Assembly: GCF_016925675.1 (NCBI RefSeq)
Contig: NZ_CP070507.1
Coordinates: 62,001 to 126,000, forward strand
Reading direction: 5' to 3'
DNA from: Pseudomonas hygromyciniae
Lineage (GTDB): Bacteria; Pseudomonadota; Gammaproteobacteria; Pseudomonadales; Pseudomonadaceae
Length of the DNA: 64,000 bases
In this document: positions 7,103 through 47,804 of the stretch, piece by piece
How positions within the stretch are numbered: the first letter of the stretch is position 1
How the letters are laid out: each line of letters starts with the position of its first letter
Position numbers and translations under genes: made by a program
The notes under the pieces: model-generated
Told to the model about the DNA's origin: nothing
What the model saw: the letters and a program-made list of their open reading frames with translations, nothing else
Databases searched by the model: none

Positions 7103-7913
7103 ATGCAGGAAGCAACAACAGAAATCCCGAAACAAGCGCGGGCGGTATTGGACACTGTTCGAGGCGTCTTCGAGGACGCCTTGCTGGCAGTATATCTGCA
7201 TGGATCAGCGGTCTCCGGTGGTCTGCGGCCGCAGAGTGATATTGACCTCCTTGTCGTCATCGATCGCCCGATGACAGAAGCGCTGCGCAAAAGCCTGCTG
7301 GCCGCCTTGCTGCGGGTTTCCGGTCGACATCCTGCCAGTCCCGGCGGCCCGCGCTGTATCGAGGTGATGTTATTCCAGAAATCTGAACTCGCCGTGCCGG
7401 GATTTCCGGCGCGGGCTGACTTCATCTACGGTGAGTGGTTGCGGGACGCCCTTGAAGCTGGCGAACTTCCGATGCCTGTGACAGACCCTGAAATCACCCT
7501 GGTGTTGGCGCAGGCCCGGAAAGAGTCTCGCCCCCCTGTTCGGTCCCGACGCTGCCGACTTGCTGCCGGAAATTCCTGCGGAGCACATCCGACATGCGAT
7601 GCGCGATTCACTGCCTGCGCTACTCAACGGCCTGCATGGTGATGAACGAAATGTTCTGCTGACGCTTGCCCGGATGTGGCACACGGCAACCACCGGGAAG
7701 TTCATTAGCAAAGACGCCGCAGCGACATGGGCGATGCCTCATTTGCCAGAGCCGCTGGCGGAAGTAGTGGCCTGTGCCCGTGAGGCATATCTTGGCCGAG
7801 TCAAGGATGACTGGGGAACCAGCCAGGCTGATGCGCGGCAGACAGCTAATCACCTATACCAACAGGTGATTACTCTTCTGAAGCGCGAGGAGTCCCAGTT
7901 GAACTCAACGTAG
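7103..7913 (+). pseudogene. Frameshifted aadA-like aminoglycoside nucleotidyltransferase
   Basis: A divergent relative of ANT(3'')/AadA adenylyltransferases, about 269 residues if the frame is restored. The nucleotidyltransferase motif LHGSAVSGGLRPQSDIDLLV (GSx-DxD) is intact. So are FIYGEWLRD, GDERNVLLTLARMW, KDAAATWAM and the final AREAYLG helix, all in the AadA order. The frame breaks at a run of six C at 7531-7536, where five would join the two halves smoothly (RPLFGPDAADLLPEIP). This is either a real inactivating insertion or a sequencing error. If the frame is intact, streptomycin/spectinomycin-type adenylylation is likely but unproven. Confidence 0.8.
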
Positions 7914-8014
7914 ACCGATGTCCCTCCGAAATGAATACAACGAAAATTGTTCACCCGCGCGCCGGCGGCAACTGAAGTCATAACCAAGATCTATCTTTTC
8001 TCGATCGTGAAGTT

Positions 8015-8620
8015 ATGAGGCCAATGCAGAATTACGTCCCGATCTCGATGAATACGGTTGACGCCCTGATCGTAGTCGATGTGCAGAATGCCTTCGTATC
8101 AGGTCCGGAGGCTGTTCCAGGACATAAAATGCTCATTTCTGCGATTGAGCTATTACTTACTCAGGCTAGGCTCGCCAACGCGCCTGTGATCTTCCTCCAA
8201 AACGATGGTCCTGTCGGTGCCACCGATGAGCCGTTCCAACCGGGGTGGGCACTCTTCTTTCCTCCGCGACCACACGAGAAGATCGTACGGAAAAAGAATG
8301 ATAACGGGTTCGACGGAACTGATCTGCACACTATCCTTACAGGCCTCGGCATACGAACAGTCGCGATGTGCGGAATGCTCTCGGATATGTGCCTTGCTGC
8401 TACAGCGCGGGCAGCCATGGAGCATGGTTACGGCGTTTTGCTGCCGCACGACGCGCATGCAACCTACGACGTTCCGGCCGGCCCAGGGTCAGAAGCCGTT
8501 CCCGCAGCGATGGCGGCGCGAGCGGCAGAATGGTCGCTTGGAGACGAGATAAAGATTTGTGCGGCGTCGCATGAAGTCCGATTTGTAGCAGCGCGCTCCG
8601 ACGCGCCGGCCATCTTTTGA
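8015..8620 (+). CDS. Isochorismatase-family cysteine hydrolase
   Basis: A 201-residue hydrolase of the isochorismatase-like superfamily. The Asp-Lys-Cys triad is visible: VVDVQNAF (Asp, about residue 22), IVRKKNDNGF (Lys), and GMLSDMCLAATARAA with the nucleophilic Cys, preceded by the usual cis-peptide region. Enzymes of this fold hydrolyse isochorismate, nicotinamide, N-carbamoyl amines or streptothricin. The last group makes a drug-resistance role conceivable given the neighbours, but nothing in the sequence decides it. The start is uncertain among three nearby ATG codons. Confidence 0.75.
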   Translation: MRPMQNYVPISMNTVDALIVVDVQNAFVSGPEAVPGHKMLISAIELLLTQARLANAPVIFLQNDGPVGATDEPFQPGWALFFPPRPHEKIVRKKNDNGFDGTDLHTILTGLGIRTVAMCGMLSDMCLAATARAAMEHGYGVLLPHDAHATYDVPAGPGSEAVPAAMAARAAEWSLGDEIKICAASHEVRFVAARSDAPAIF

Positions 8621-27748: not shown

Positions 27749-28568
27749 GGCACTGTTGCAAAGTTAGCGATGAGGCAGCCTTTTGTCTTATTCAAAGGCC
27801 TTACATTTCAAAAACTCTGCTTACCAGGCGCATTTCGCCCAGGGGATCACCATAATAAAATGCTGAGGCCTGGCCTTTGCGTAGTGCACGCATCACCTCA
27901 ATACCTTTGATGGTGGCGTAAGCCGTCTTCATGGATTTAAATCCCAGCGTGGCGTTGATTATCCGTTTCAGTTTGCCATGATCGCATTCAATCACGTTGT
28001 TCCGGTACTTAATCTGTCGGTGTTCAACGTCAGACGGGCACCGGCCTTCGCGTTTGAGCAGAGCAAGCGCGCGACCATAGGCGGGCGCTTTATCCGTGTT
28101 GATGAATCGTGGGATCTGCCACTTCTTCACGTTGTTGAGGATTTTACCCAGAAACCGGTATGCAGCTTTGCTGTTACGACGGGAGGAGAGATAAAAATCG
28201 ACAGTGCGGCCCCGGCTGTCGACGGCCCGGTACAGATACGCCCAGCGGCCATTGACCTTCACGTAGGTTTCATCCATGTGCCACGGGCAAAGATCGGAAG
28301 GGTTACGCCAGTACCAGCGCAGCCGTTTTTCCATTTCAGGCGCATAACGCTGAACCCAGCGGTAAATCGTGGAGTGATCGACATTCACTCCGCGTTCAGC
28401 CAGCATCTCCTGCAGCTCACGGTAACTGATGCCGTATTTGCAGTACCAGCGTACGGCCCACAGAATGATGTCACGCTGAAAATGCCGGCCTTTGAATGGG
28501 TTCATGTGCAGCTCCATCAGCAAAAGGGGATGATAAGTTTATCACCACCGACTATTTGCAACAGTGCC
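27749..28568 (-). mobile_element. IS26: IS26, right copy (complete, 820 bp)
   Basis: A second complete IS26 of 820 bp with perfect 14-bp ends, in the same orientation as the copy at 3622-4441. The flanking 8-mers (GTCACGCT left, CTCTCCAG right) differ, so it has no target duplication. It cuts tamA on the left and the Tn3-family tnpA on the right. Together the two copies delimit a 23.3-kb segment with the shape of an IS26 translocatable unit or pseudo-compound transposon. Confidence 0.98.
27801..28505 (-). CDS. tnpA: IS26 transposase (IS6 family), second copy
   Basis: A 234-residue transposase, the same protein as that encoded at 3674-4378. It is intact, so the segment between the copies could be mobilised as a single-IS26 translocatable unit. 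Confidence 0.97.
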   Translation of the reverse strand: MNPFKGRHFQRDIILWAVRWYCKYGISYRELQEMLAERGVNVDHSTIYRWVQRYAPEMEKRLRWYWRNPSDLCPWHMDETYVKVNGRWAYLYRAVDSRGRTVDFYLSSRRNSKAAYRFLGKILNNVKKWQIPRFINTDKAPAYGRALALLKREGRCPSDVEHRQIKYRNNVIECDHGKLKRIINATLGFKSMKTAYATIKGIEVMRALRKGQASAFYYGDPLGEMRLVSRVFEM

Positions 28569-30538
28569 CTCTCCAGGACGTGGTACGGGATGTCGCTGGT
28601 ACGTGCCATAACCTGGTTGCCGTGGTTCATGGCTTGGGCAATGATCACCGCCATCAGACTGTCGGCGTCGGCTACCTTCTTCGCATAGCGTGGCTGCAAT
28701 GGTGTCAGCGCCGACAGGAACTGGCACTGGCCGTTGACGAAGCGAAACACGTCGGCGACATCGCAGTATGGCAGTTGCTCGTAGAGAGCTTGCTCGCGCG
28801 CCTTCTGGTTCTCCCCCTTGGGCTTGCGCCAGGTCAGTCTCTGCGTGTCCTTGTCGTATTCCAGGTGCGTCAGCTTGCCCTGTTTCAGCTCGCGATTGAA
28901 CGCCACCCATTGCGCACGCAACTCGGCCGCCAGTGCATCGAGCTGGGCACTGACCGGCTGCCGCAGGAAGGGGATGTCCATCTGCGCGAGCACGGCGGCT
29001 TTCTCGTCCATCGAAACCAACTCGTCGGACAAATGCCGGTGCTGCAAGCTGTCGTCAATGTAGAGCTCGCCCGCCTGGAAGCGTTTCCTGACCTGACGGT
29101 AAAGCCAGAATTCGTAACGATCGGCATGCAGGCCTGTCGGCGTGCCTTCGGCATCGAACATCAGCAGGTACGGACGCAAGCGTTTCGGCAGCGTTGCCGC
29201 CGGACATTCGTCGAGTGGCCGTTGTGATAGGCGCTGCTGCTTGGCGAACACGCTCTTGGCCCAAGTCAGCGCCGCGAGCCATGGGTTATCGGGGGCCGTG
29301 CCGGCGAAGTCGAGCGCGACGTACAGCGGCCGTAGATGGCGTCGAATGCGTTCGGCCAGGCCGTCCACCGCCTGCCAGTGCAGCGCCAGTTTGTTCAGTG
29401 GCTTGACGCTCATGCGCTGCGCCGTGTTTTGCAGCAATTCCCTGGACATGATTTTGTAGGCGCGTTGGCGCACCTCGCCGAACGGCGTCGGATCGGCCAC
29501 GCTGTCGTCCACGTACAGCGACAGCAGGCGGCCAACCTGCGGCGTTTCCTGATGGCGTCGCAGCTGTTCGGCGACAAAGGACTGTTTCGCACCCGTGCGG
29601 CTCTCGTCCTCAAGTTTTTTCATGTGGAAGGCCATCGCGTCGACCAGGTTGTCGGTGAGCTGCCGGTAACGTACCCAGGCATAGCACAGCAGGTAGAGCC
29701 GGGTCTGCTCCGCCTTCAGGTGGCGCAGGTCATGGACGGTATAGAAGTTCGCCAGGCTCGCGTAGTACAGCAGGTTCTGCTGCGAGATGCCGAGCTTGGG
29801 CAGCAGCGCCTTGGCGATCCCGTGCAAGGACTTCAGCGTGGCGCGCTTCTCGCGCTCCCCTGCCATCTGACGCCAGCCGAAATCTTTAGCGTCCTGCTTG
29901 AGCGCTGCCAGTTGAGACAGGGTGTCGTCACGCACCAGGAGCTGGCCCAGCGCAGCTTTGGCCGATTCGTCCAACACTTCTGCCAGCAAGCCGCCCAAGC
30001 GCCTGCGTTCGGTGGACAGGGCTTCACTGACCAGCTCTTGTAAGGTGGTGTGGCCGGGCCGGATGATTTTGTGCTCGCTGAGCCAAACGATCAGTTCGGC
30101 GGCCACGAATCCTGGCATTACGTCGCGCCGCACGATCTGTTCAGCCTGCTGTGCCAGTTGCGGCAGGAAGCTAGCCGCCCACGACCGGTAGCCGAACAGT
30201 TCGGCGATCTGACCCCTCTGGCTGTAGTGCTCATGCTTGGTGATCGCCTTGCGTTCGAACGCTTCGCCGTGGAAATAGCGACTCAGCACGAAGGCGCAAT
30301 CGTCCTCGACCTCATGCCAATCGAAGCGGAAGAAAGCATGCTTGGCCTTGAAGTAGCCGATCTGCAAGACGCAATAGACTTGGGCCTGCAGGCTAGGCCG
30401 GCTGCTGGCGAACGCCAGTTCAGATTCGGTCAACGCCAGGTATTCCAGCCGCTGAGCATCGTCGAAGTCCGGTAGGCCGTACAAGGCTTCCTGCTCTGCG
30501 TCAGAAAAGACGGTGAGTAGCTTATTCTTGTTGCTCAT
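28569..30538 (-). pseudogene. tnpA: Tn3-family transposase, 5' two thirds (cut by IS26)
   Basis: The first about 656 residues of a roughly 990-residue Tn3-family transposase, starting MSNKNKLLTVFSDAEQEAL. It runs through the N-terminal DNA-binding domain to the beginning of the catalytic domain (AKKVADADSLMAVIIAQAMN) and is then cut by IS26 at 28568. It resembles the Tn4662a/Tn5501-type branch, in keeping with the toxin-antitoxin pair next to the resolvase. Its first codons overlap the resolvase stop by 17 bp. Transposition cannot work without the missing DDE residues. Confidence 0.88.
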
Positions 30539-33203: not shown

Positions 33204-34498
33204 TTGGTAAAACGCATTCCCGTATCCGAGCTTCGTCTCGGCATGTACATCCACAAGCTCGCCGGCTCTTGGGTTCGACACCCATTCTGGCGCGGCAGCT
33301 TCCTGCTGACCGAGCCTCAGGATCTCTCTGCCATTCGAGAATGTGGCGTCAGGGGAGGTCTGGGTCGACTTGGCCAAAAGCCAAGTCGACCCAGAGAGCC
33401 CAGAGAGCCCAGAGAGCCCAGAGAGCCCAGAGAGCCCAGAGAGCCCAGAGCCCAGAGCCCAGAGCCCAGAGCCCAGAGCCCAGAGCCCAGAGCCCAGAGC
33501 CCAGAGAATTGTCGGAGGAGCAATCTCTGCCGTCTAGTCCACTAAGCAAGAAAAGTGACGGCGCAACCTCAATGGAGAGCGAAATGTGTTATGCACGGAA
33601 ACTCTGTCTTGCGGCCAAGTCCCAAGTCATGGACATGTTCCAGGAAGCCCGGCTTGGCAAGGCCGTCGACCCAAGCACGACGTTGCCGCTGGTCGGAGAA
33701 ATCGCTGCCTCGGTGCTGCGCCAACCTCATGCCCTCATCAGCGTCGCACGCATCAAAACGCACGACGATTACACCTACCTGCACTCGGTTGCCGTCTGCG
33801 CCCTGATGCTATCGCTGGCCCGGCATCTCGATCTAGACGAGGAGCAAACGCGCCTGGCTGGCATCGGCGGACTGATGCACGACCTAGGCAAGGCCGCGAT
33901 GCCGCTGGAAGTGCTTAACAAACCAGGCAAGCTCACCGATGCCGAGTTCGCCATCATGAAGCGCCACCCTGTGGAGGGCGCAAAGATGCTGCGCGCAGGC
34001 GGGGCCGAGCCCGGGGTGGTGGACATTGCCCTGCACCATCACGAGAAGATCGACGGAACCGGCTACCCGGATCGCTTGGCCGGTGACGCCATTTCACTCC
34101 TGGCCCGCATGGGCGCAATCTGCGACGTCTATGATGCCGTGACGTCGGAGCGAGCCTACAAAAAGCCGTGGGACCCGTCCGCGGCGATGCGGCAGATGGC
34201 CAAGTGGGAGGGCCATTTCGACAAACGCATCTTCCACGCCTTCGTCAAGGCCGTGGGCATCTACCCCGTCGGCTCCTTGGTTCGCCTGTCCTCTCAGCGT
34301 CTGGCCGTTGTCGTTGAGCCGGGAATGGAATCACTGCTGACTCCCAAGGTTCGCGTGTTCTTCTCGCTACGCTCGAGAGAGCCGATCCCGATGCAGACCA
34401 TCGACCTGGCGGCCACGAGTTGCAAGGACAGTATCACTGGCCCCGAAGACCCGACGCTCTGGAACTTCAAGAACCTCGACGACTTGTGGATGGAATAG
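33204..34498 (+). pseudogene. HD-GYP c-di-GMP phosphodiesterase, frame broken at a repeat tract
   Basis: The N-terminus (VKRIPVSELRLGMYIHKL, TTG start after AAAGGAAA) is a DUF3391 domain. The C-terminal 300 codons carry a complete HD-GYP domain: HSVAVCALM, GLMHDLGKAAMP (HD), HHHEKIDGTGYPDRLAG (GYP). Such enzymes degrade cyclic di-GMP. The two parts lie in different frames. An extra G near 33352-33355 shifts one frame, and a block of 9-bp and 7-bp repeats (33390-33506) separates the other. Changing the heptamer count by one could restore a continuous frame. An internal start near 33572 (MESEMCYARK) could also give HD-GYP alone. Confidence 0.75.
33390..33506 (+). repeat. Tandem repeat tract: 6 x CCCAGAGAG then 9 x CCCAGAG
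   Basis: Six perfect copies of a 9-mer (33390-33443) run directly into nine perfect copies of a 7-mer (33444-33506) that is the same unit lacking AG. The 9-mers keep frame. The 7-mers change it with each gain or loss. It lies inside the HD-GYP gene between its two domains. Perfect short units like these slip during replication. Confidence 0.97.
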
Positions 34499-34655: not shown

Positions 34656-36023
34656 TTACATCCCCAACCAGTTCGACCGCCCAAGCGCCCACGGCCGGAT
34701 CAAGTTCTCGATCTGATTGTTGTCGATGGGCACAGCACCATCTTCCAGGTAGCGCGTCAGCGCTACCCAGCGTTTGAGACTGTAATCCAGGGCCTTGGCC
34801 GTAGCTGAACCCTCGGGCACAAGTGCACGCTGAGCCAACATCCACTCATGCAGCTTTTCAGCGATGGGCACTGCCGTTTCCTGGCGTAATCGCCAACGGT
34901 CTTCGTCGCTCATTTCCTTGGCGTGTCGCTCGACTTCATACAGCCCGCCAATCGAGTGAAGCGCCTGCTCTGCCAACTGGCTTTTATTGGCTACATGCAG
35001 GTCGAAGAACTTGCGGCGCGCATGGGCCATGCAGCCGATCTCGGTGATGCCCAGCTCAAAGCTGGCCTTGTAGCCGGCAAAGTCATCACAGACCAGCTTC
35101 CCGTTCCAGGTGCCCAGGAAGTTGCGCGCATGTTCGCCGGCACGGCTGGGGCTGAAGTCGTAGACCACGGCCTTGAGGGCCGAGAATGGCGTAGTGCTGT
35201 AGGCCCAGACATAAGCGCGGTGGGTTTTCTTCTCGCCGGGCGCCAGCATTTGTACCGGCGTTTCATCGGCGTGAACCACGCGCTGGGCCAGCACCACCTC
35301 GCGCAGCGCATCGACCAGCGGCTGAAGCTGCACGCCGGTTTGACCCACCCACTGCGCCAGTGTCGAGCGCGGGATAGCCAGGCCGGCACGGCGGAAGATC
35401 TTCTCCTGTCGATACAGCGGCAGGTGGTCGGCGAACTTGGCCACCATCACATGCGCCAGCAGGCCCGCCGTGGGGATGCCCTTGTCGATCACTTGAGGCG
35501 GCACCGGCGCCTGGATCAGTGTTTCGCACTGCCGGCAGGCCCATTTCCCACGCACATGCTGCTCGACAGTGAACACGCCCGGCGTGTAATCCAGCTTCTC
35601 ACTGACATCTTCACCGATGCGCTGAAGCTGGCAGCCGCACGCGCATTGCGTGTCGTCCGGGTCGTGATGGATCACAGTGCGTGGGAACTGCGGTGGCAAC
35701 GGCGCACGCTTGGGTTGCTGGCGTGGTTCTGCCTGCGCAGGTGCTGGATGAAGGGCTTTTAACTCGGCCTCGATGGCTTCGAGGTCAGTATTAAGCAGGT
35801 CATCGAGCAAGCTGCCTTGCGCCGGGCTGATCTGCTCGCTGCGTTTGGCGAACTTGTGGCGTTTAAGGATGGCGATCTCGTGAGTGAGCTGCTCGTTGAC
35901 CGTCTCGATTCGATGGATCTTCTTGCTCATGGTGTCGACCTGGGCCTGCAAATGCACGGCCCGCTCGGCCAGCGCGCGGAGCTGTTCCGGGGTCATTTGG
36001 TCGAGATTGAGCAAGAAAGTCAT
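34656..36023 (-). pseudogene. tnpC: IS66 transposase TnpC, C-terminus missing
   Basis: 455 residues of an IS66 DDE transposase. It has an N-terminal leucine-rich helical region, a zinc-finger-like CACGCQ then CRQC segment, catalytic VVHADETPVQM and LVCDDFAGYKA, and WVALTRYLEDGAVPIDNNQIEN. Relatives continue about 50 residues past GRSNWL, but here two foreign residues and a stop follow. The protein is probably inactive or impaired. Confidence 0.88.
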
Positions 36024-36073
36024 GCCGTGGATTTTACCAAAGCAGCGCGACTGCTTCAGCTAAAAGGCAATAT

Positions 36074-36409
36074 TTAAAGCAATGTAATTGCGCCGCCCGT
36101 ACCCACTCGTTGCCAAGGTAATCCAAGTACCAGTACTTGGAGTTGCTCGGGGTCGAGTTCAACCTCAGTCCCACGATGGATGCCCGGCCAATGGAACTTG
36201 CCCTGGTTCAAACGGCGCGCCGCCAGCCAGATACCGACGCCGTCGTGCACCAGGACTTTCATCCGGTTGGCCCGCCGGTTGGCAAAGAGGTAAGCGCAGT
36301 GCGGCTTCGCCGCACCGAACACCGCAACTACTCGGGCCAGTGCCGTTTCAGTGCCGGCGCGCATGTCCATGGGTTCGGTGGCAAGCCAGATGGCATCAAC
36401 GCGAATCAT
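36074..36409 (-). CDS. tnpB: IS66 family accessory protein TnpB
   Basis: A 111-residue TnpB of IS66 (MIRVDAIWLATEPMDMRAG, then CAYLFANRRANRMKVLVHDG). The start at 36409 overlaps the tnpA stop by ATGA. It is required with TnpA and TnpC for IS66 transposition. It is intact. Confidence 0.9.
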   Translation of the reverse strand: MIRVDAIWLATEPMDMRAGTETALARVVAVFGAAKPHCAYLFANRRANRMKVLVHDGVGIWLAARRLNQGKFHWPGIHRGTEVELDPEQLQVLVLGLPWQRVGTGGAITLL

Positions 36410-36723
36410 TGAGCCAGACCACGAATGAAACACGCGCAGCCGTCCGGATCCGAGACTGGCCATTTTACGGTGATGGACTTATCACCCAGAGGCAGCGAGA
36501 TGATCACCATCTCTTCAGTTGCACGCCTTGGCGCCGGTTTTACCGGAACGAAGGCAGGCAAGGCTGCGACGGGTTGATCCCGATAAATCGGTAGCCACTT
36601 GCGGATCACGTTGGCGTTGATGCCGTGATGGATAGCTACGCTGGAAATTGTCGCTCCGGGTTGCAGGCATTCCTGAACGACTTGGGCTTTGAATGGTTTG
36701 GGGTAAGAGCTTCGTTGGCGCAT
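36406..36723 (-). CDS. tnpA: IS66 family protein TnpA (helix-turn-helix)
   Basis: A 105-residue basic protein with a helix-turn-helix (KPFKAQVVQECLQPGATISS, then HGINANVIRKWL). This is the first gene of the IS66 set, and its stop overlaps the tnpB start. It is intact. Confidence 0.88.
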   Translation of the reverse strand: MRQRSSYPKPFKAQVVQECLQPGATISSVAIHHGINANVIRKWLPIYRDQPVAALPAFVPVKPAPRRATEEMVIISLPLGDKSITVKWPVSDPDGCACFIRGLAQ

Positions 36724-36833
36724 GGAAATCCCGGCGATAAGGGCGATCGCGTCCGCTTAAAAATACGCGGACACCATCGCCCTTAATGCTGGGATTTTGA
36801 AGGTGTGTTCGCCGGCCGCTTACATTCCAACTT

Positions 36834-36882
36834 GGGGACGATAGAGAAGACGGAATAAATCGTACGCTAAGCGCTTCGCCTG
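36834..36882 (+). repeat. 49-bp inverted repeat, left arm
   Basis: Begins GGGGACGATAGAGAAGACGG and ends GCGCTTCGCCTG. It is an exact reverse complement of 42124-42172, with no mismatch over 49 bases. The two arms enclose the Hsp70 module and nothing else. On the minus strand this arm can be read as coding (AKRLAYDLFRLLYRP), as can the right arm on the plus strand. Confidence 0.97.
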
Positions 36883-36975
36883 GGCGCGCAGCCCGGAACG
36901 GGCGAAGGCAAGAGGGCTTATAGTGCTTCGTGGTGGAGCGACGGGCCGGTGAAGACCCGCCGCAAACGGCGTTGC

Positions 36976-39477
36976 TTAAACGATACCGGTATAGAGTCGC
37001 ACGTCTTCCTCTGCGCGCTCGGTATCGGGAACAAGCATCCACAATTGACCATTTACATCACGCAAATCGTCCCAGTTCTTGGTCGCAACCAGCCGGCGTC
37101 CATGGTCGATAAGTTGCTTGGCCTGCGCTTGATCGTTCATGGTCGGCCGTATCTCTTCCAGGTGCTGGAACATACCAACTAGGAAGTCGGGCTGGCGAGC
37201 TAGGATTTGGAAGTGAAGTCGCTGCAATTCGCTCGTCGCAGCGTCGATACGCTCTGGGTTGGTTGAGTGGATATGCAACTCCTCTCGGGCCAGGATTTCC
37301 TTCAGCTGATGCCGCTCGCGATCGTTGCCCGACTCTTGAACCATGGAGGCCGTATCGGACTTGACCTGGAGATAGTTTGCTTTTGCAGCATCGATCCGCT
37401 TGGATGCTGTCAGCTCAAAAATCCCTTGAGCAATCTTGCACTTCTTGTCTTCGAGCTTGAAGCGATCGTCGGTCACGTCATCGCTAGAAAGCGATGCGCT
37501 CTCAACGATAAGCGACTGGAGTTCGTCATTCAGTTTCTCCAACTTAGCTGCGCCATCATGGTTGTGGTTCGCCTGAGCGTCCTCAATCTCTGTCTGGATC
37601 TTCGTTTCGAGCTGAAGCACCTCGGTGGCCAACAGGCGGGTATCGACGTGGCGGGCCTGGCCCTTGAAGACCTGAGAGAACTCCTGTCCCGTACCGTTAA
37701 GGTAGGCGGACACCGTCAAATCTCGTGACTCCGACATTTCGAAGGTCAGATCCACCTCTGTGCCGCGAAGAAGGTCACGGTTAATTTGCTCACCGGTGAT
37801 AGCCAATATTCCAATCGGCTTATTGGTCGATGAATGTTTTTCGGATGGTCCTTCAACGACCATGATGGTGATGGCGTCGCGAGAGCCTTTGACGATGGTC
37901 TTGGCGATCTCAACGGTGCGCTTCCCTTTGGTAGGTAGTACGCAGTTCTTAGCAAAAACAAGGTCGAGTCGTGTGTCCTTGGTAGAACGATCGTCCTTAA
38001 CTAGGCAAATATCTTCTGGAAGCATCTGACCGGCGACGCTGTAGCGCCCCTGTGCAATCTGGATCGAATCAAAGCCAACATCGATGATGTTGTTCTGGCC
38101 GTCAAGGATCTTGAAGGTGAATAGATTGAAGGATCCTTCGCGCAGCGGAAGATCTTCAGCGATACGGGTCGTGAGGGGCTTCAGACCACTGTCAAAGGAG
38201 CCGTCGTCATTTGAGATTCTATAGAACAGACCGGCGGTATTTCCTTCAACCTTGGCGGTAAAGGTTTCTTCGCTTTCCTGAGAGTTGCGGTTGTAAACAG
38301 CACGAAACTTGATTTGTGAGTTCGTCTGGGCTTTCGGCGCAGCGCCTTCCTGCTTGAATTCCTTGCTGCCCGCAAAGTAAGCAGCTCCGATGGTAATCGC
38401 GCTGGTCGGATCAATCGATGTATTGACCGGGATGTTCATCATCTCCTCGACGCGCTTGCGAACGTAGGGGCTGTAGGTCGAGCCACCCACCATCAAGATG
38501 AACTTGAGATCACTCGATTGCAGGGAGTTGCGCGTCAGAATTTTTTTCATCATATCGACAGTGCCATCCACTGCGTCCTTGATGACATTTTCGAATTCAG
38601 AGCGAGTGATATTCAGGATGGTGTCAATGGCATTGCCCTCGTCATCCACGAGGTCACGAATCATGCCCAGATCGATTTCCGCCGATGCCTTGGTGCTCAA
38701 TTCGATCTTGGCTTCCTCCGCCTTGTGCAGCAAGACAGTCCAAAGCTTGTTGTATTTGCCTTTTTCGCTTTTCATTTGAGCAAGAAGGTCTTCGAACTTT
38801 CCGCGGCGGTTGATCTCCGGAACAAGGATCCTCTCAACGATCATCGAGTCAAAGTCAGATCCACCTAAATAGTTATCACCTTCGTGATCAACCACCGTTA
38901 ACTCCCCTTCGACAATCTTGACCAATGCTACGTCAAAGGTACCGCCGCCCAGGTCATAAACAATCCATTGGCTGTTCCGAAGGTCGTCGCTCTTTTCCTT
39001 GTTCGCATACGCCAAACTAGCTGCAATCGGCTCTTGTAGCAGGACAACGTGCTTGAAGCCGGCTGATATTCCTGCGTCCTTGGTGGCGTTTGACTGCACC
39101 GTATCAAATGAGGCGGGTATGGTGATTACCGCAGCTTCGACTGCTTCGCCGGAATGTACAAATCCCTTTAGCTCCTTGAGAACAAAAGCAGAAAGCTCGA
39201 TCGGAGTCTTGGATGCATTCAGTGACTGAATCTTGATGGTTTCTGTAGTGCCCATCTTTCGCTTGAAGCGGCTGGCAACGCTCTTCGGGTCCTTTTCGGC
39301 ATACGTGCGAGCCTGGTCACCTACCATGATCCGGTCATTTCGGAAGCCTACGATCGACGGGAGTGTTTCCTTGAAGCCGTTGGGATTCTTGAATACCTCG
39401 ACTGACCCTTTGTCAAATTTAGCGATCAGCGAGTTGCTGGTTCCCAGGTCAATCCCGAAATTGATCATCTTTGTCAT
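36976..39477 (-). CDS. Divergent Hsp70-family ATPase, 833 residues
   Basis: An Hsp70/DnaK-like protein. The N-terminal ATPase domain is clear: FGIDLGTSNSLIAKF (phosphate 1), PASFDTVQSNATKDAG, LLQEPIAASLAYA, IVYDLGGGTFDVALV (phosphate 2), LGGSDFD and FILMVGGSTYSPYVRKRV (adenosine). From about residue 400 it leaves the DnaK pattern. It has a beta-rich domain and a long helical C-terminus (LETKIQTEIEDAQANHN onward), about 200 residues longer than DnaK and without the EEVD-like tail. The start is fixed by GGAGGTATCACA before the ATG, which overlaps the GrpE-like stop (ATGA). It is last in a three-gene operon. The client is unknown. Confidence 0.88.
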   Translation of the reverse strand: MTKMINFGIDLGTSNSLIAKFDKGSVEVFKNPNGFKETLPSIVGFRNDRIMVGDQARTYAEKDPKSVASRFKRKMGTTETIKIQSLNASKTPIELSAFVLKELKGFVHSGEAVEAAVITIPASFDTVQSNATKDAGISAGFKHVVLLQEPIAASLAYANKEKSDDLRNSQWIVYDLGGGTFDVALVKIVEGELTVVDHEGDNYLGGSDFDSMIVERILVPEINRRGKFEDLLAQMKSEKGKYNKLWTVLLHKAEEAKIELSTKASAEIDLGMIRDLVDDEGNAIDTILNITRSEFENVIKDAVDGTVDMMKKILTRNSLQSSDLKFILMVGGSTYSPYVRKRVEEMMNIPVNTSIDPTSAITIGAAYFAGSKEFKQEGAAPKAQTNSQIKFRAVYNRNSQESEETFTAKVEGNTAGLFYRISNDDGSFDSGLKPLTTRIAEDLPLREGSFNLFTFKILDGQNNIIDVGFDSIQIAQGRYSVAGQMLPEDICLVKDDRSTKDTRLDLVFAKNCVLPTKGKRTVEIAKTIVKGSRDAITIMVVEGPSEKHSSTNKPIGILAITGEQINRDLLRGTEVDLTFEMSESRDLTVSAYLNGTGQEFSQVFKGQARHVDTRLLATEVLQLETKIQTEIEDAQANHNHDGAAKLEKLNDELQSLIVESASLSSDDVTDDRFKLEDKKCKIAQGIFELTASKRIDAAKANYLQVKSDTASMVQESGNDRERHQLKEILAREELHIHSTNPERIDAATSELQRLHFQILARQPDFLVGMFQHLEEIRPTMNDQAQAKQLIDHGRRLVATKNWDDLRDVNGQLWMLVPDTERAEEDVRLYTGIV

Positions 39478-39827
39478 TGTGATACCTCCTCCTTGCTCTG
39501 TACTACAACGATCCCTTTTTGCACAACCCGTGAAACCGGGCCATTTACCAGCCTAATCACAGGCTTGATGACCTCAGTGACTACCAGATTCTCAATGCCT
39601 GCTCCGACAATGGTGGCTTCGAGGTCCGTGCGTGTCTCTTTGAAGGGCTGTCCCAGCGGATCCTCGATAATCAAGGACTGCTGTTCGAATTCCTCCTTGA
39701 TTCGGTCAACGTTGCGTTTAGCGTGTCCAGGGTCGCCGTGAACTTCCAGCTTGCGTTCTATTTCATAAAGGCTGTTCAGTACGACAAGCGTCCAGCGTGG
39801 TATTTCAATTGGCGGGGGAATGGACAT
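39474..39827 (-). CDS. GrpE-like nucleotide exchange factor
   Basis: A 117-residue protein with a short helical first half (RWTLVVLNSLYEIERKLEVH) and a C-terminal beta-rich half (IEDPLGQPFKETRTD, then PVSRVVQKGIVVVQS) like the end of GrpE. The position directly before and overlapping the Hsp70 start supports a nucleotide-exchange role. It is much shorter than normal GrpE (about 180-200 residues), so the long dimerisation helix is reduced. Resemblance is moderate, and an unrelated adaptor is the alternative. Confidence 0.6.
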   Translation of the reverse strand: MSIPPPIEIPRWTLVVLNSLYEIERKLEVHGDPGHAKRNVDRIKEEFEQQSLIIEDPLGQPFKETRTDLEATIVGAGIENLVVTEVIKPVIRLVNGPVSRVVQKGIVVVQSKEEVSQ

Positions 39828-39835
39828 GACTATCC

Positions 39836-41956
39836 TTAATCGCAGTTGAATGACATTGGAAATAATCGGAGCAACATGGCGTTTGGAACGTCACGTAAGC
39901 TGATAGGGAGAGACTTCTTTCCTCTGATTTTATCTACTACTATGGCTGAGCCATTCTGAAGCACGACATCTATCCCACTCCAAGGCACTTGATTTTGGCT
40001 GGTGAAAATCAGCCATTTTGATTCGAAGCTCATGCCATTTTGTGTGATCTGGATCGGACCAACTGTCAGGGTTCCGCCACGTTTTAGCTCGCCGAGGAGG
40101 TTTTCCATCACGTCGGGAATGATGTAGTGAAACGCGGCATTGACGAGCTTTTCGAACAGCTCATCCTGTTTGTCGCGGTCGGAAGATGTCCATGTAAGCA
40201 TGTACTCCTTTCCAGTCCGCCGCTTAGCGGCGAATAGATAGTTATGTGAGCCATTTTGCTCGACCATTATTCCCCAGCGTAAGGCTCGGATCTCATTCGC
40301 TGGGCACAGGTCACCGTTATCGGAAACGCCTTCCTTCGTAATTTTCCAGTGGCGAGCATTCCCGAAGGTCAAGTGAGACTCGTGCTCTCGTTGCTTTTTG
40401 ATCATCTCCGAGATGGCTTCGAAGTCTTCTTTCAAACGCTGTGTGAGCTCAATGGACTTGAAGGAAAACTCTTTACTTTTCTCAATAATCGCCAAAGAAA
40501 GTTCCGAGTCTTCATGGACGTTGTGCGCATCAATGGCAATGCTTCTGACCAAACCTACCGCTTCATTTTGCAAGTTGCGGAAGTAGGGCGGCAGCAGATT
40601 CAGGATGCTGATGATTTTGTGCGTCTCCAGAACCTCATCGATCTGTTTGACCGTTACTTTAATAGCCTCTGCCCGATTCTTGAGCTCCCGTAGCGGGATC
40701 AATATGGAGTCCGCTTCTCGTAATGCGTTTTCAAAGCAGCGATCGGCATAGGAGGGCATGACCCAGCGACGGCCATCGAGCAATGCTTCAATGACGGGCA
40801 CATCCCGGGCTGCAACGGCCTTATTAAAAATGCGGTCGTACTGTGCTGAAAATGGATCGCTTAACCACTCCCTGAGCGCTTCGGAAACACTCACTCGCTC
40901 GATAAAATCGAGGGGCGACCACTCTTCGTCCAGAAGGAAATGGTTGATATCGCCTTTTGACAAAAACTCCAGAAGAGGTTTGCACTTATATACTTCCCAG
41001 TGATGGGAGGCGACCTCTATGTCGGACAGCTTTTCCGCTAACTCAATCGCCTTTGAACGATCGACAGTTAGCCCAGGCATCCAATGTAGTTTTCCCTCCT
41101 CAAGCTCAATTTCCTGAAGTAACGTCTTTTTCCATTTTTGGACAACCTTGGGTTCAAGATCACCGAAATCGAAGTCTTTCGGGCAATTCAGGAGCTGGAA
41201 AGGGTTGATGTAGATCGAGTACCACTGATCTTCCGCCTGGCAGAGTGACTTTCGGGACGATTGAACCTTGCGAGCCAAATCCAAAAGTGGAGCCTTGACA
41301 GACAGGATGCGGTTTGGCGCCTTTTCGTTAGACTCGTCTTTGCGCATGACCAAGCGCCAACAGTCAACGGCATCAACGTCTTGGGACACGTCATCCAAGT
41401 TGTAGGCGAGGCCCAGGTTGAAAAGCGATGCGGTGTCATCGCTTTGGTGCGCGTTGCGCGACCAGTATTTGATGGCATCAAAGCCATGGTTGTTGAGGAA
41501 ATGTAGGATGCCTAATCGATTCAGGTGCCATGGACTGAGACTCTCAAGTTCATCGAGCTTGGTGAGTACTAGAATTTCTTCCGCTCGCTTCTCAGTGTCA
41601 TTGTTCTGTCCGTAGATATGAGCAAGCCCTCGTAGCGCCTCAATCTCCTCATTGTCACAGTTAAGTGCAGTCTCGAACGAGCTTGCTGCTTCCTCAGGAG
41701 CCCCCAGATCAAGCTCCAAGCTGCCCCGTTTTGCCCACGCTTGGGCAAAGTATGGGACTTTGTCGTTGGTTTCCTTGAGAGCTTCTAGGGCAGCCTCTTT
41801 CCTGCCTAGGGAAATATTGTTGAGTGCCAGAAGCCACCAGCCATCAGCATTGTCGGGATCCTGGACCGTGGCTGCTTTGGCAGAAATTACTGCTTCCTCG
41901 TATCGATCGCGCCTACGTTGATCTCTAGCCTTTTCTATTAGCTCTTCTACGTCCAT
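39836..41956 (-). CDS. TPR-repeat protein with C-terminal PH-like domain, partner of Hsp70
   Basis: A 706-residue protein. The N-terminal about 230 residues are tetratricopeptide repeats (AVISAKAATVQDPDNADGWW; FAQAWAKRGSLELDLGAPEE; NDTEKRAEEILVLTKLDE). The middle is helical. The last about 130 residues (LRWGIMVEQNGSHNYLFAAK, then YMLTWTSSDRDKQDELFEKL) look like a bacterial PH-like domain. There is no HPD motif, so it is not a J-protein. It precedes the GrpE-like gene by 8 bases. It may recognise targets and deliver them to the Hsp70. I preferred the start MDVEELIEKA. An earlier ATG would add 18 residues. Confidence 0.75.
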   Translation of the reverse strand: MDVEELIEKARDQRRRDRYEEAVISAKAATVQDPDNADGWWLLALNNISLGRKEAALEALKETNDKVPYFAQAWAKRGSLELDLGAPEEAASSFETALNCDNEEIEALRGLAHIYGQNNDTEKRAEEILVLTKLDELESLSPWHLNRLGILHFLNNHGFDAIKYWSRNAHQSDDTASLFNLGLAYNLDDVSQDVDAVDCWRLVMRKDESNEKAPNRILSVKAPLLDLARKVQSSRKSLCQAEDQWYSIYINPFQLLNCPKDFDFGDLEPKVVQKWKKTLLQEIELEEGKLHWMPGLTVDRSKAIELAEKLSDIEVASHHWEVYKCKPLLEFLSKGDINHFLLDEEWSPLDFIERVSVSEALREWLSDPFSAQYDRIFNKAVAARDVPVIEALLDGRRWVMPSYADRCFENALREADSILIPLRELKNRAEAIKVTVKQIDEVLETHKIISILNLLPPYFRNLQNEAVGLVRSIAIDAHNVHEDSELSLAIIEKSKEFSFKSIELTQRLKEDFEAISEMIKKQREHESHLTFGNARHWKITKEGVSDNGDLCPANEIRALRWGIMVEQNGSHNYLFAAKRRTGKEYMLTWTSSDRDKQDELFEKLVNAAFHYIIPDVMENLLGELKRGGTLTVGPIQITQNGMSFESKWLIFTSQNQVPWSGIDVVLQNGSAIVVDKIRGKKSLPISLRDVPNAMLLRLFPMSFNCD

Positions 41957-42123
41957 ATTCGTATTTTGGATCCAGTTATGGCAGTGGCGAAACTGCCATG
42001 ATTCTGGCAATTTCGGATATGCGCAAGAGCAAGCCGACCTCCCGCGACCAGCGCCGCATCAGAGTAGGGTCGATTTCTGCATTTCCTGACGCTCCAGCGT
42101 CCACCTCTATTGCCTCAACCTGA
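41957..42123. promoter_or_regulatory. Upstream region of the chaperone operon
   Basis: The only gene-free DNA ahead of the three-gene operon inside the inverted repeat, so its promoter should lie here. I cannot pick the -35/-10 elements with confidence, and no heat-shock-type promoter is obvious. Confidence 0.35.
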
Positions 42124-42172
42124 CAGGCGAAGCGCTTAGCGTACGATTTATTCCGTCTTCTCTATCGTCCCC
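42124..42172 (+). repeat. 49-bp inverted repeat, right arm
   Basis: An exact reverse complement of 36834-36882. It starts CAGGCGAAGCGC and ends TCTCTATCGTCCCC. An in-frame TGA lies just before it. The reading frame then runs through the arm into a protein-like C-terminal region. Confidence 0.97.
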
Positions 42173-44777: not shown

Positions 44778-45896
44778 ATGAACGCGTCAATCTCCCGCGA
44801 ACACCAGTTCGACGACCAGGTAGTTATCCCAGCGCTGGGCCAGCAGCTCAACTTGCTTGGGTTCGAGCCTGAGCCTGCTGTGCTGGCAGAGGGAACCTAT
44901 TTCGATGCCCCGACAGTGGATCTCGACAGCTATGACCACGTTGTAGTCTGTGTGTCTGGCAAGGACAGCATCGCTTGCCTGCTGGCACTGATCGAACAGG
45001 GTGTGGATCTGCGTCGTGTTGAGCTCTGGCACCATCGGGTGGATGGTGCAGAGGGGAGCACCCTCATGGACTGGGCTTTCAATGACAGTTTTATCGAGAA
45101 GTTCGCTGCTGCATTCAATCTGCCGCTCTATTTCTCATGGTTGCAGGGTGGCATCGAGGGCGAAATGCTCAAGATGGAAGCCTACTCCAAGCCTCACGTG
45201 GTCGAAACTCCAGCCGGAACTATCTGCCTGGATCGCGATACCAGTCGGACTTCTCCAGCGACCCGCCGCCGGTTTCCTCAGCAAAGCGCCAACCTGGCAA
45301 CGCGCTGGTGTAGCTCTGCAGCCAAGATCGACGTGGGCCGCCGGGCCATCACCAACCAGGGGCGCTTCCTCGGTAGCAAGACCTTGTTCGTTACTGGCGA
45401 GCGCCGCGCTGAGTCGAGCAACCGCAGCAAATACAACCAGTTGGAGCCTCATGCAGTTGACCGGCGCAAGGGTCGCCTCGGCCGGCACGTAGATGCTTGG
45501 CGACCGGTACTGCACTACAGCGAAGAACAGGTGTGGGAACTGCTTGCTCGCCATCGGGTAGAGGCACCTGTTCCCTACCGTTTGGGATGGGGGCGCTTCA
45601 GCTGCATGACGTGCATCTACAACTCACCAAAGGTATGGGCCACAATCCAAAAATACTTCCCAGAACGGGTCACCCCGATAGCAGGTTACGAGGACGAGTT
45701 CGGCTGCACCATCAGTCGACAGAAAATCAACGTGGTGGATCTGTCGGCCACAGCGGACGCGTTTGATATCACCGATCTGGACGCACTTGCCCAAGGGCGC
45801 CAGCGCGAGTACACGCTGCCGATCTTCACGCCCGAGGGCAAAGCCTGGCAGTTGCCAGCTGGAGCTTTCGTAACAGAAGGCTGCGGATCGGTTTAA
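44778..45896 (+). CDS. PAPS-reductase/ATP pyrophosphatase family protein (first of two)
   Basis: A 372-residue PP-loop enzyme. The nucleotide-binding loop is VVVCVSGKDSIACLLALIEQ, an SGxDS form one glycine short of the usual SGGKDS. It is followed by VELWHHRVDG, TRRRFPQQSANLATRWCSS, TLFVTGERRAESSNRSKY and FSCMTCIYNSPK (Cys pair). This family uses ATP to activate or transfer sulfur and is common on phages and megaplasmids. The start follows GAGGACA. A second, longer member lies 123 bases downstream, so the two probably act together. Substrate unknown. Confidence 0.75.
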   Translation: MNASISREHQFDDQVVIPALGQQLNLLGFEPEPAVLAEGTYFDAPTVDLDSYDHVVVCVSGKDSIACLLALIEQGVDLRRVELWHHRVDGAEGSTLMDWAFNDSFIEKFAAAFNLPLYFSWLQGGIEGEMLKMEAYSKPHVVETPAGTICLDRDTSRTSPATRRRFPQQSANLATRWCSSAAKIDVGRRAITNQGRFLGSKTLFVTGERRAESSNRSKYNQLEPHAVDRRKGRLGRHVDAWRPVLHYSEEQVWELLARHRVEAPVPYRLGWGRFSCMTCIYNSPKVWATIQKYFPERVTPIAGYEDEFGCTISRQKINVVDLSATADAFDITDLDALAQGRQREYTLPIFTPEGKAWQLPAGAFVTEGCGSV

Positions 45897-45971
45897 AAAA
45901 CTCCTCTGCGGTTTCCTCACGAACCGAGGCCGTTCTCAATCCCTTGGGATTGCCGATGCCTGCCGTACCTT

Positions 45972-46003
45972 GAATCCATCAGCTCCAGTGAGGAGTTGGA
46001 TTC
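45972..46003. promoter_or_regulatory. Long hairpin just upstream of the second PAPS-reductase gene
   Basis: An inverted repeat with outer arms GAATCCA / TTGGATTC and inner CTCC / GGAG closing on AGTGA. It ends 16 bases before the ATG at 46020, partly over the ribosome-binding region. It could regulate translation or end the upstream transcript. No T-run follows. Confidence 0.45.
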
Positions 46004-46019
46004 AAGCACGGAGCTTGTC

Positions 46020-47804
46020 ATGCAGCTGTTCGATTTCGATCTATTCTCTTCTGCTGGCGTCCAGGAGATGCCTGCCAAAGTTATTCGTGGGCCTAAGAAG
46101 ACGTTGGCCGAGAAGATTGCCGAGGCGGTCGACGCTGTGAAGCGCGTCGTGCGAGCCGGCAAGCAGCCTGTTGTGGCGTGGAGTGGCGGCAAAGACTCAA
46201 GCGTTACGCTGAACATCGCGTTCACTGCAATTCGCGAGTTGGCCACCGAAGGTTTCGAGGTGCCAACCTTGAACGTCATGCACTCCGACACCCTCATGGA
46301 AAACCCGGTGATCCACTGCTACAACCAGAGCCAGATGCAGCAAATGCAGGCTTACGCGAAGGCTGAGGGCATCGAGTTGAAAGTGTGGGTAGCGAAGCCA
46401 GGCCTGAGCAATGACTACTTAGTTAGCATGGTCGGTGGGCGCATCATCGCCAGCGTTGGCTCCAACGCCAAATGCCAGCAAATGACCAAAGCAGACCCCA
46501 TGAAACGAGTGAAGAAAGCAATCCTTCGCGATGTTTCGGCGCGCCTGGGCCGAAAGTGTGCTGATGACGATATCGTTTCGCTGATCGGTACCCGGTTCGA
46601 TGAGTCCGTGCAGCGCGAGCGGAAAATGTCTGAGCGCGGCGAGAGCGCCTTTGAAGCTGTGAACCTCGGCGCCGGCGCTGGCTCGCACGACTGGGTACTC
46701 AGCCCAATCGCTGAAATGACCACCATGGACGTGTTCAGCTACATCGGCCAGGTGGTAGCCGGTCGGATTGAATGCTACGACCGCTTTAATCGGTTGGTTG
46801 AGATCTACCGCGACATGAATGGCGGTGACTGCATGGTGAACGTCTACCTGGCAGGGAAACAATCAGAGCGCCCCGCGTGTGGCCATCGCACAGGCTGCTG
46901 GTCATGTACCCGTATCTCTCGAGACTCGTCCGCCGAGAGCATGATTGCCAAGGAAGGCGGCGAGTACGAGTGGCTCAAGCCCCTGAACGACTTGCGGAAC
47001 TACATCAAGGCCCGCCACTTCGATCCGAGCGCTCGATGCTGGCTGGCGCGCACGGTTGATAAGGAAACGGGGACGATAGAAATCGCTCCGAATTCCTACT
47101 CGCCGGCATTCACCAAAGATTTGCTGGGAATCATGCTCACGATTCAGCTCGATGAATTTGACGCTGCACATCAAGCCGGTATTGAGCCCCGTTTCACACT
47201 TCTGGACATCCAGCAACTGCTGGCAATAGAGGCGCTTTGGGGGCGGTATGGGTACCAAAAGCCTTTTACGGCAATGAGGGTGTTCCTGGAGGTCTACGAG
47301 CAAGGGGTTCGCTATGAAGTCCCGAATATAACGTCGCTGCCAAAATATACCGAAGCGGATCTGAGATACCCAGAAGTCGAAGTCCCGTTCTGTGATGATC
47401 AGTACCTGGGAATGTTCAACGGCTTACGCAGTATTTCCCATGCGGCTGCAGATGCAGAGCTCCTGACCAGAACACGCAATGGCATGTTGGTCATGGACGT
47501 GGTGACCAGCAGTGGGTTTGAGATCGATCGCGAGGGCGCAGAGCTATTCGTGAACCTTGAATTGGACAACGCCCTGTCTCGAGTTACCTTTGACCAGTCT
47601 CCGACCGCTGGGCTGCACTACCTGCTGGGGTTGGGAACAATCGCAATCTTCAAGGGTGATCATTCCGACTGGGACCGGATGATGCGCATGTCCAATCAGA
47701 TCTTCAGAAGCGATCTGCAGCCCATCTTGCACGATCGGGCTAGGCTGATCAGGAAACTTGGCGGTCATACCCTTGGCCAGCTTGAATTATTGCCAGTTCC
47801 ATAG
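46020..47804 (+). CDS. DndC-like PAPS-reductase family protein (second of two)
   Basis: A 594-residue ATP pyrophosphatase. The PP-loop is VVAWSGGKDSSVTLNIAF (about residue 50), with LNVMHSDTLMENP, IIASVGSNAKCQQMTK, IGTRFDESVQRERKM and a Cys cluster CGHRTGCWSCTRISRDSS that may hold an iron-sulfur cluster, as in DndC. The C-terminal 250 residues are extra and unrecognised. DndC takes part in DNA phosphorothioation, but no dndB, dndD, dndE or cysteine desulfurase lies nearby, so a standard Dnd system is absent. I preferred the ATG at 46020, preceded by GGAG. Confidence 0.78.
   Translation: MQLFDFDLFSSAGVQEMPAKVIRGPKKTLAEKIAEAVDAVKRVVRAGKQPVVAWSGGKDSSVTLNIAFTAIRELATEGFEVPTLNVMHSDTLMENPVIHCYNQSQMQQMQAYAKAEGIELKVWVAKPGLSNDYLVSMVGGRIIASVGSNAKCQQMTKADPMKRVKKAILRDVSARLGRKCADDDIVSLIGTRFDESVQRERKMSERGESAFEAVNLGAGAGSHDWVLSPIAEMTTMDVFSYIGQVVAGRIECYDRFNRLVEIYRDMNGGDCMVNVYLAGKQSERPACGHRTGCWSCTRISRDSSAESMIAKEGGEYEWLKPLNDLRNYIKARHFDPSARCWLARTVDKETGTIEIAPNSYSPAFTKDLLGIMLTIQLDEFDAAHQAGIEPRFTLLDIQQLLAIEALWGRYGYQKPFTAMRVFLEVYEQGVRYEVPNITSLPKYTEADLRYPEVEVPFCDDQYLGMFNGLRSISHAAADAELLTRTRNGMLVMDVVTSSGFEIDREGAELFVNLELDNALSRVTFDQSPTAGLHYLLGLGTIAIFKGDHSDWDRMMRMSNQIFRSDLQPILHDRARLIRKLGGHTLGQLELLPVP

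Follow-up and report, generated by a model that had tools for sequence, protein, structure and literature searches.

Analysis of 64,000 nucleotides of Pseudomonas hygromyciniae DNA (the window, bases 62001-126000 of the second contig, which is 249,868 bp long and was taken as a plasmid) revealed a 5,339-bp segment at positions 36834-42172 that is best read as a non-autonomous Tn3-type, TIME-like cassette rather than an inversion switch. The safest statement is that it is a Tn3-type transposase-less cassette with a divergent Hsp70, a GrpE-like protein and a tetratricopeptide repeat (TPR) co-chaperone candidate with a possible J-like segment, and that this gene unit exists outside the terminal repeats too. 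The domains of the Hsp70, a GrpE match that exceeds those of shuffled controls and the J-like kinship of the TPR protein together suggest that the three proteins probably form a compact, divergent K-J-E triad. As a whole, a TIME-like cassette carrying a dedicated divergent chaperone triad is the best explanation that we can offer, with confidence just short of even. The parts of the cassette are as follows, where L-numbers denote comparison loci.

36834-36882, + strand: left Tn3-type terminal inverted repeat (38-bp form GGGG...ACGCTAAG; identity with the right end reaches 49 bp)
36883-36929: left inner segment, outside the cargo common to L012, L013 and L020; 32 bp match pG69 and a P. migulae plasmid
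36930-42012, - strand: cargo unit; BLAST matches to L012, L013 and L020 end at 36930, and on the other side those to L013 and L020 end at 42012 and that to L012 47 bp earlier
36976-39477, - strand: Hsp70-like gene, 833 residues (nucleotide-binding domain, extra domain, beta substrate-binding domain, C-terminal tail)
39474-39827, - strand: GrpE-like nucleotide-exchange-factor candidate, 117 residues, of which 43-109 align to the GrpE C-terminal domain
39836-41956, - strand: TPR / J-like / beta C-terminal co-chaperone candidate, 706 residues from its ATG (724 from the first start in the list of open reading frames)
42041-42123: right-end inner segment, which together with the repeat matches 402 plasmid records
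42124-42172, - strand: right Tn3-type terminal inverted repeat

Direct comparison confirmed that the two ends are perfect reverse complements over 49 bp, as the first-pass annotation of this DNA had noticed. A scan for the first 38 bp of the repeat with up to 3 mismatches found only these two copies in the window, where none were expected from 100 shuffles, and the same two alone in the whole 6.29-Mb genome. We take the 38-bp form GGGG...ACGCTAAG to be that of a Tn3-family terminal repeat. When compared with 72,556 plasmid records, the 49-mer matched 3,339 at E<=1, 15 of them at 95-99% identity. Some part of the right end (the repeat plus about 80 bp inward) is matched in 402 plasmid records, at 80-90% identity in 301 and at 60-80% in 101, and the repeat alone is covered in 2 of the 40 matches listed. 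Both these plasmid matches and the 38-bp length of TIME ends, as given in the relevant part of PMC4133298, agree with the Tn3 form of the repeats. No transposase is encoded inside the cassette. At its right end, a promoter scan gave one weak site on the + strand, opposite to the operon strand, and one weak terminator-like site.

In the parts of PMC4133298 that bear on this comparison, TIMEs are described as Tn3-derived, non-autonomous, transposase-less elements of Pseudomonas, 262 bp long with 38-bp ends, and a hybrid TIME-RES is conserved with them in the ends and in about 60 bp beside one end. The present cassette resembles the elements so described in its 38-bp Tn3-type ends, the lack of a transposase, an apparently conserved inner stretch at one end, the carriage of foreign genes and its presence on a Pseudomonas plasmid, but differs in having a three-gene chaperone operon as cargo and no visible target duplication. 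The term TIME-like therefore refers to this build, and not to an alignment with the published TIME1 sequence. Over 106-129 bp, the right end of the cassette is 83-85% identical to elements in L008, L010 and L011/L023 that are either small or carry cargo. The element in L010 is 244 bp long, with related repeats at both ends. In L008 (pKF715D, 5944-8120), a repeat, an mcp chemotaxis receptor gene and a TIME-like end follow one another between perfect 5-bp duplications (TTCCT), again with no transposase; a second transposase-less element with a related right end and mcp cargo (L026, 5223-7132) lacks a perfect duplication, and in L025 similar repeats flank mer genes. Among the five two-ended elements (L008, L010, L024, L025 and L026), L008 alone has the perfect 5-bp duplication. 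We also considered a whole TIME split by insertion of the cargo and rejected it: when the two ends are joined (257 bp), they align with the small elements at the repeats and in the right part, and nowhere else. Since the left inner part is unmatched by the small elements, only the right end is clearly TIME-like. Mobile insertion cassettes are likewise transposase-less Tn3-like cassettes, and as described they resemble the present one in having ends and passenger genes without tnpA.

For the cassette to move, a Tn3-family TnpA able to recognise its ends would have to act on it in trans. Several observations weigh against reading it as such a cassette. No target-site duplication surrounds it, the flanking bases being AACTT and TACCT. 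None of the transposases in the genome stretches read is both intact and bordered by matching ends. The same plasmid carries two tnpA genes with near ends (33/38 and 31/38 identical), and both are shortened, one to 763 residues that are 100% identical to the 988-residue tnpA product of L020 and the other to 514 residues. A 1005-residue tnpA product is also encoded on this plasmid, with no end of this pattern within the 6.9 kb read. A transposase of the same plasmid with matching ends was thus discarded as the mover, as only the shortened ones have near ends, and with no intact tnpA next to matching ends we infer the mobilisation. The region G000:C2:59414-63670, to the left of and into the window, holds a shortened Tn3-type tnpA that shares 763 identical residues with that of P. 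psychrophila HA-4. Two streptomycin-phosphotransferase-like genes come after it and a merR-like and a metal ATPase-like gene before it, recognised by eye. Inside a 685-residue open frame, window positions 28562-28753 encode a fragment of the Tn3 transposase domain that corresponds to its first 65 positions.

Between the repeats lies one operon of three genes on the same strand (TPR protein, small protein, Hsp70), and the 8-base gap (39828-39835) and the ATGA overlap (39474-39477) are as originally described. Scanning genome contigs for the Hsp70 yielded 11 loci (L012-L022). The P. gessardii locus (L016) is the window's own DNA, collinear and 99.99% identical over 11.9 kb, repeats included. Apart from it, 4 of the 11 loci retain the complete trio, namely L012 (P. 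abietaniphila), L013, L014 and L015, where the identities are respectively 98, 94, 87 and 74% for the Hsp70, 97, 91, 74 and 64% for the GrpE-like protein, and 93, 87, 63 and 43% for the TPR protein. The three genes are under purifying selection in the two loci compared, with dN/dS (the ratio of non-synonymous to synonymous substitution) of 0.11, 0.13 and 0.24 for Hsp70, small protein and TPR protein relative to L012 and of 0.11, 0.13 and 0.16 relative to L013. The terminal repeats are absent from the stretches of L012-L015 examined, both at up to 9 mismatches and when the general Tn3 pattern is used. As the three genes occur without these repeats in four other loci, the operon travels by several vehicles. 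The trio is kept together in these loci, but the repeats do not travel with it there. The first-pass annotation would have counted against its own reading a known chromosomal trio with repeats peculiar to this plasmid through chance duplication. This applies by half: the trio is indeed found elsewhere without the repeats, but these are of the transposon-end type and not a chance duplication.

In L012 and L013 the unit adjoins an integrase-like gene, identified by eye, and has the same island neighbours, but the direction in which it lies within the island is opposite in the two. At the edges of the trio unit of L012 (7262-12613) there are intergenic inverted repeats that have diverged (25 nt, 72%). 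The trio of L015 stands beside type I restriction and PrrC genes. A copy with a large internal deletion is found in P. psychrophila HA-4 (L020, 1684-3097), beside a Tn3 tnpA-tnpR-integrase region. L017-L019, from a Chryseobacterium bin and two loci of one Flavobacterium, encode an Hsp70 at 50% identity and a small protein at 38-40%; only fragments are present in L021 and L022. The trio is rare. Its TPR protein was detected in 3 of 398 genomes of the genus (its own included) and in 2 of 390 of the order (its own and a partial 28% match), and its small protein in 1 of 398 genomes of the phylum, its own. The plasmid collection, which may omit the window's own record, contained neither the Hsp70 at E<=1e-100 nor the TPR protein at E<=1e-10. 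A phage origin was rejected: the Hsp70 has matches in 24 phage records, but in every one of them less than 80% of it is covered, and the 10 matches listed are confined to the nucleotide-binding domain. In IMG/VR, a distantly related operon is present on one contig (L092).

The Hsp70 identity of the largest protein was confirmed by a PF00012 match, and its domains are arranged as follows.

38368-39459, residues 7-370: nucleotide-binding domain (PF00012, E 4.4e-72)
37966-38364, residues ~372-504: extra domain
37663-37965, residues ~505-605: beta substrate-binding domain, from profile comparison

The Pfam match and the PDB matches listed end near residue 373. The beta substrate-binding domain has no Pfam match and was detected with hhalign against 7 DnaK sequences (E 3e-4, 40% probability, 0/60 column shuffles as good). 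The roughly 130 residues between the two domains gave no match to the substrate-binding domain profile, and a DnaK-type linker was not seen. Residues of the phosphate site in the nucleotide-binding domain are nearly invariant across the alignment of the Hsp70 family. The protein falls short of the cut-off of the DnaK equivalog TIGR02350, with 250 bits against 822.55.

The description of the small protein as GrpE-like is backed by profile comparison with 29 GrpE sequences (E 2.7e-4, 42% probability, 0/60 column shuffles as good), although searches of Pfam, NCBIfam and PDB sequences returned no GrpE match and the Pfam GrpE model matched none of 37 family members. About 42 residues precede the GrpE-aligned part, compared with the long dimerising N-terminal helix of GrpE.

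The TPR protein combines three kinds of module.

41258-41950, residues ~3-233: TPR helices
41024-41224, residues ~245-311: J-like segment
residues ~527-675: C-terminal beta modules

TPR matches cover its N-terminus, and a DUF6585 match near the C-terminus scores under the curated cut-off. The predicted structure has a mean pLDDT of 92.4 and a pTM of 0.76. In this model, helices extend to residue 233, followed by a helix at 252-255, a long helix at 269-285, a strand at 293-297 and a helix at 300-311; beyond 311, helices continue to 522 and lead to two beta modules linked by a long helix. The predicted secondary structure at the J-like segment is compatible with a J-domain. Relatives of the TPR protein include P0222, with a TerD domain, and P0191, with a topoisomerase-type zinc ribbon.

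To characterise the J-like segment, a profile was built from the segments of 8 operons (L092, L174-L178, L191 and L192), chosen by eye for their J-like look and sharing the pattern NPF..LG.....R..I.......A...L..PR.RL.AE..WLPG. This profile matched 24 DnaJ J-domains (E 1.9e-4, 47%) and residues 240-345 of the TPR protein (E 1.7e-5, 78%), with 0/60 column shuffles as good in either comparison, and gave no signal with the control region 346-530. The J-like gene lies upstream of the Hsp70 gene in L092, L174 and L178. In addition, the TPR-protein profile (A1) finds the J-like proteins of L175, L176, L177, L191 and L192, which belong to gammaproteobacterial and betaproteobacterial-plasmid operons, over their C-terminal halves with E 4e-16 to 6e-23, the best of 220 shuffled sequences reaching E 0.19. 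The hhalign comparison of the TPR protein with those five gave E 1.8e-21 for the C-terminal half and a weaker E 1.4e-4 for the J-like segment. On these C-terminal matches, the third gene belongs to one co-chaperone family with the proteins of the five loci, and the Pseudomonas type is a form with added TPRs. A1 also matched L178 (E 1.6e-6) and L173 (E 0.0056), while L092 and L174 are linked to the TPR protein by the J-like segment and position alone. The upstream proteins of the Flavobacterial loci resemble the TPR protein by eye in the J-like segment. Their A1 match arises by construction, as L017 and L018 are rows of A1, and was not used as evidence; tblastn did not recover a match of this type.

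A competing view of the TPR protein is that it has no J function, that the J-like segment is a chance likeness and that the host DnaJ, or no J-protein at all, serves the Hsp70. We consider this a substantial minority possibility. Inspection by eye of the TPR protein and of the alignment of the 8 J-like segments revealed no HPD motif, and Pfam DnaJ matched none of the TPR, upstream or J-like proteins scanned. Further points count against a J-like kinship. Region 240-345 alone reaches only 6% against DnaJ. Because the 8 segments were selected by eye, their similarity to DnaJ is no independent evidence, and their alignment with the TPR protein has gaps in the middle and does not pair the helices one to one. 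In L175, L176, L177, L191 and L192 the J-like gene comes after the Hsp70 and AAA genes, and not in the position it has in the trio. A joint J-like profile gave E 4.2e-4 with 1/60 shuffles higher (score 128, 99.7%; an apparent program artefact), and a three-sequence profile gave 6.4% with 2/100 shuffles at 99.7%, which also looks like an artefact. A1 against the upstream proteins of L092 (E 0.32) and L174 (E 0.022) is at about the level of shuffled sequences. On the other side, the segments of the 8 operons match both DnaJ and the TPR-protein segment above all 60 shuffles, and five of those 8 proteins share their C-terminal half with the TPR protein. The earlier statement that the module has no J-protein thus stands as regards an HPD-bearing J-domain, none being seen, but it appears doubtful overall, as a divergent J-like segment may lie inside the TPR protein.

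Distant relatives extend the family beyond the conserved trio. Among plasmids, 70 records matched the Hsp70 at E<=1e-40, and in 11 of these the match extended over 80% of it or more; of the six plasmid relatives opened (L173-L178), five come from the 11 and the sixth is at 75%. A C-terminal profile (A4) found matches in 4 of 378 Pseudomonadota genomes, its own included, and in 12 of 296 genomes of the phylum of L017, including the L017 genome. A gene for 95-129 residues precedes the Hsp70 gene, as judged by eye, in L174-L178, L092, L191 and L192; the same holds for 4 of the 11 short Bacteroidota loci newly obtained (L197, L198, L203 and L205). Candidates in L199, L200, L202 and L204 are cut or uncertain; none was seen in L193, nor in L201, L206 and L207, where fewer than 300 bases before the Hsp70 gene were available. 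L173 encodes a 299-residue protein in this position. The GrpE-like profile gave E-values of 0.0041 for L177, 0.011 for L176, 0.023 for L175, 0.25 for L178 and 0.62 for L174, and as these matches are weak or absent, which weighs against the triad reading, the kinship of the small proteins of L174-L178 is mainly one of position and size. In L092, L175, L176, L177 and L192 there follows a gene for an AAA ATPase similar to IetA models, which in L173 is fused to a kinase. L173 also encodes a TerB-family protein, and TerB-like genes, recognised by eye, follow the Hsp70 gene in L017, L018, L021 and L197. Overall, such operons are found repeatedly in Pseudomonadota and Bacteroidota, where some of them also encode an AAA ATPase, TerB or a zinc-ribbon protein; their carriers include plasmids, integrase islands, a Tn7-like element and the present Tn3-type cassette. 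The first-pass proposal of a self-contained chaperone set on mobile DNA is supported by the conservation of the trio in L012-L015, by purifying selection, and by the location of some distant relatives on mobile DNA or beside defence genes.

The trio resembles the canonical DnaK-DnaJ-GrpE system in its Hsp70 nucleotide-binding and beta substrate-binding domains, its GrpE-like C-terminal domain and its possible J-like segment. It differs by the extra domain between the two Hsp70 domains, the lack of an HPD motif, a very short exchange-factor candidate, the TPR and beta modules, and its organisation as one operon. The trio was not found described in the literature searched on chaperones and defence, in which subscription journals were thinly covered. 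Two related themes were compared by description, from the passages of each paper that concern them. In the neighbourhood of GAP1-N2 GTPases, Kaur et al. 2020 (PMC7159879) describe Hsp70 and GrpE accompanied by proteins fused to DnaJ or TPR, for which they propose a conflict role. The trio shares with that theme, as described there, an Hsp70 and GrpE adjoining a DnaJ- or TPR-fused protein, but no GTPase or FNIII protein was noticed with it, the flanks not having been searched for the GTPase. The CoCoNuT paper (PMC11090510) describes CnuD/CnuCD as Hsp70-like proteins with degenerate Walker A-like motifs, fused to or paired with McrC homologues. The likeness to that account lies in Hsp70-like nucleotide-binding and substrate-binding domains in a proposed defence system; unlike CnuD/CnuCD as portrayed there, the trio has nearly invariant phosphate-site residues and no McrC gene between its repeats.

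Within the proposed triad, the TPR protein would act as a targeting co-chaperone that holds the client with the TPR array and the beta modules of its C-terminus and docks on the Hsp70 by way of the J-like segment, which lacks an HPD motif. The Hsp70, with its nucleotide-binding domain, extra domain, beta substrate-binding domain and tail, would bind the client under ATP control, and the GrpE-like protein would release nucleotide and client. The analysis itself establishes the repeats, the order of the genes, their homologies, the retention of the three together and the purifying selection on them; the partner contacts and the role of the triad, like the mobilisation in trans, we infer.

A client-specific role in phage or plasmid conflict appears to be the most likely function, a guess that we hold somewhat below even confidence. 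We rank it before stress proteostasis, and that before service to the mobile element, because some relatives are carried by plasmids, integrase islands or a Tn7-like element, and some have BREX, Zorya, Gabija-like, type I restriction-modification/PrrC or other restriction genes in their vicinity. Neighbours were read at 16 other loci (L012-L015, L017, L018, L092, L173-L178 and L191-L193); the short loci L019-L022, L028 and L197-L207 were not counted, and only some neighbours were scanned with PADLOC. A named defence gene lies within about 10 kb at five of the 16:

L173: BREX
L174: restriction endonuclease and Fic/VbhA
L176: zorA
L015: type I restriction and PrrC
L178: GajA/GajB-like

An integrase, Tn7-like or insertion sequence gene, annotated or seen by eye, is present at nine (L012, L013, L014, L175-L178, L191 and L192). 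Neither a defence nor a mobile gene was seen by eye at L017, L018, L092 and L193, L092 coming from a collection of virus contigs. A conflict role is weakened by three points: the counts of 5/16 and 9/16 have no background rate and are suggestive only, PADLOC-DB 2.0.0 returned 0 families at E<=0.05 for each of the three proteins, and the Pseudomonas trio has no recognisable effector. One possible form of such a role, which we advance tentatively, is a conflict system made of chaperone parts only (Hsp70, J-like and GrpE-like), with no nuclease, protease or toxin in its minimal form, in which the TPR/beta co-chaperone with its HPD-less J-like segment would recognise an invader protein or a corrupted host complex and the Hsp70 would dismantle or hold it. 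In one study, DnaJ reportedly takes part in phage sensing by bNACHT25.

A second Hsp70 set carried for tolerance of heat, cold, metals or envelope stress is a less likely function than a conflict role, and on balance we think it somewhat unlikely. Other mobile elements do carry chaperone cargo, and all three parts resemble general chaperone parts. The metal- and streptomycin-resistance-like genes seen by eye near the Tn3 remnant on the same plasmid would fit, as would the TerB-family protein and TerB-like genes of the wider family. However, the extra domain of about 130 residues between the two Hsp70 domains, with no DnaK linker seen, the specialised look of the co-chaperone with its TPR and beta modules, and the named defence genes near 5 of the 16 other loci argue against general proteostasis.

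We regard as improbable a helper in maintenance or replication of the mobile element, in which the Hsp70 would remodel a replication initiator, relaxase or partner complex. The host DnaK, DnaJ and GrpE do such remodelling for some plasmids and phages, and relatives on plasmids, integrase islands and a Tn7-like element are compatible with this role, but L017, L018 and L193 have no recognised mobile gene, and the complete difference between vehicles argues against a single vehicle-derived client. Finally, the suggestion in the first-pass annotation that the 49-bp repeats invert the module as an on/off or orientation switch, prompted by perfect inverted repeats 5.2 kb apart and compatible at first sight with the inversion of the trio relative to its island neighbours between L012 and L013, is hardly credible and was rejected, since the repeats have the Tn3 terminal form, L012 and L013 lack them so that their inversion is not due to them, and L016, the sole other repeat-bearing copy, is collinear with the window in the same orientation.

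Other features of the window were noted as well. On its left the cassette is abutted by an IS66-like insertion sequence (34656-36822, - strand), recognised by eye, whose tnpC is apparently shortened. On its right, window positions 44778-47804 hold two neighbouring PAPS-reductase-like genes, the second matching DndC at E 1.5e-40 and the first weakly matching BrxP and DndC; DNA relatives of this region occur on Pseudomonas and other plasmids. Tandem 9-bp and 14-bp repeats at 33379-33513 encode short peptide repeat runs within the open reading frame 33269-34498, which has an HD-GYP-type look, and a perfect 300-bp direct repeat is present at 3622-3921 and 27749-28048, 24 kb apart.

If the triad does work in the proposed way, it would show that a J-like partner lacking HPD and a very small exchange factor can sustain an Hsp70 cycle, and that defence or mobile-element cargo can consist of chaperones only. 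The wider operon family would then provide natural variants for finding the client.

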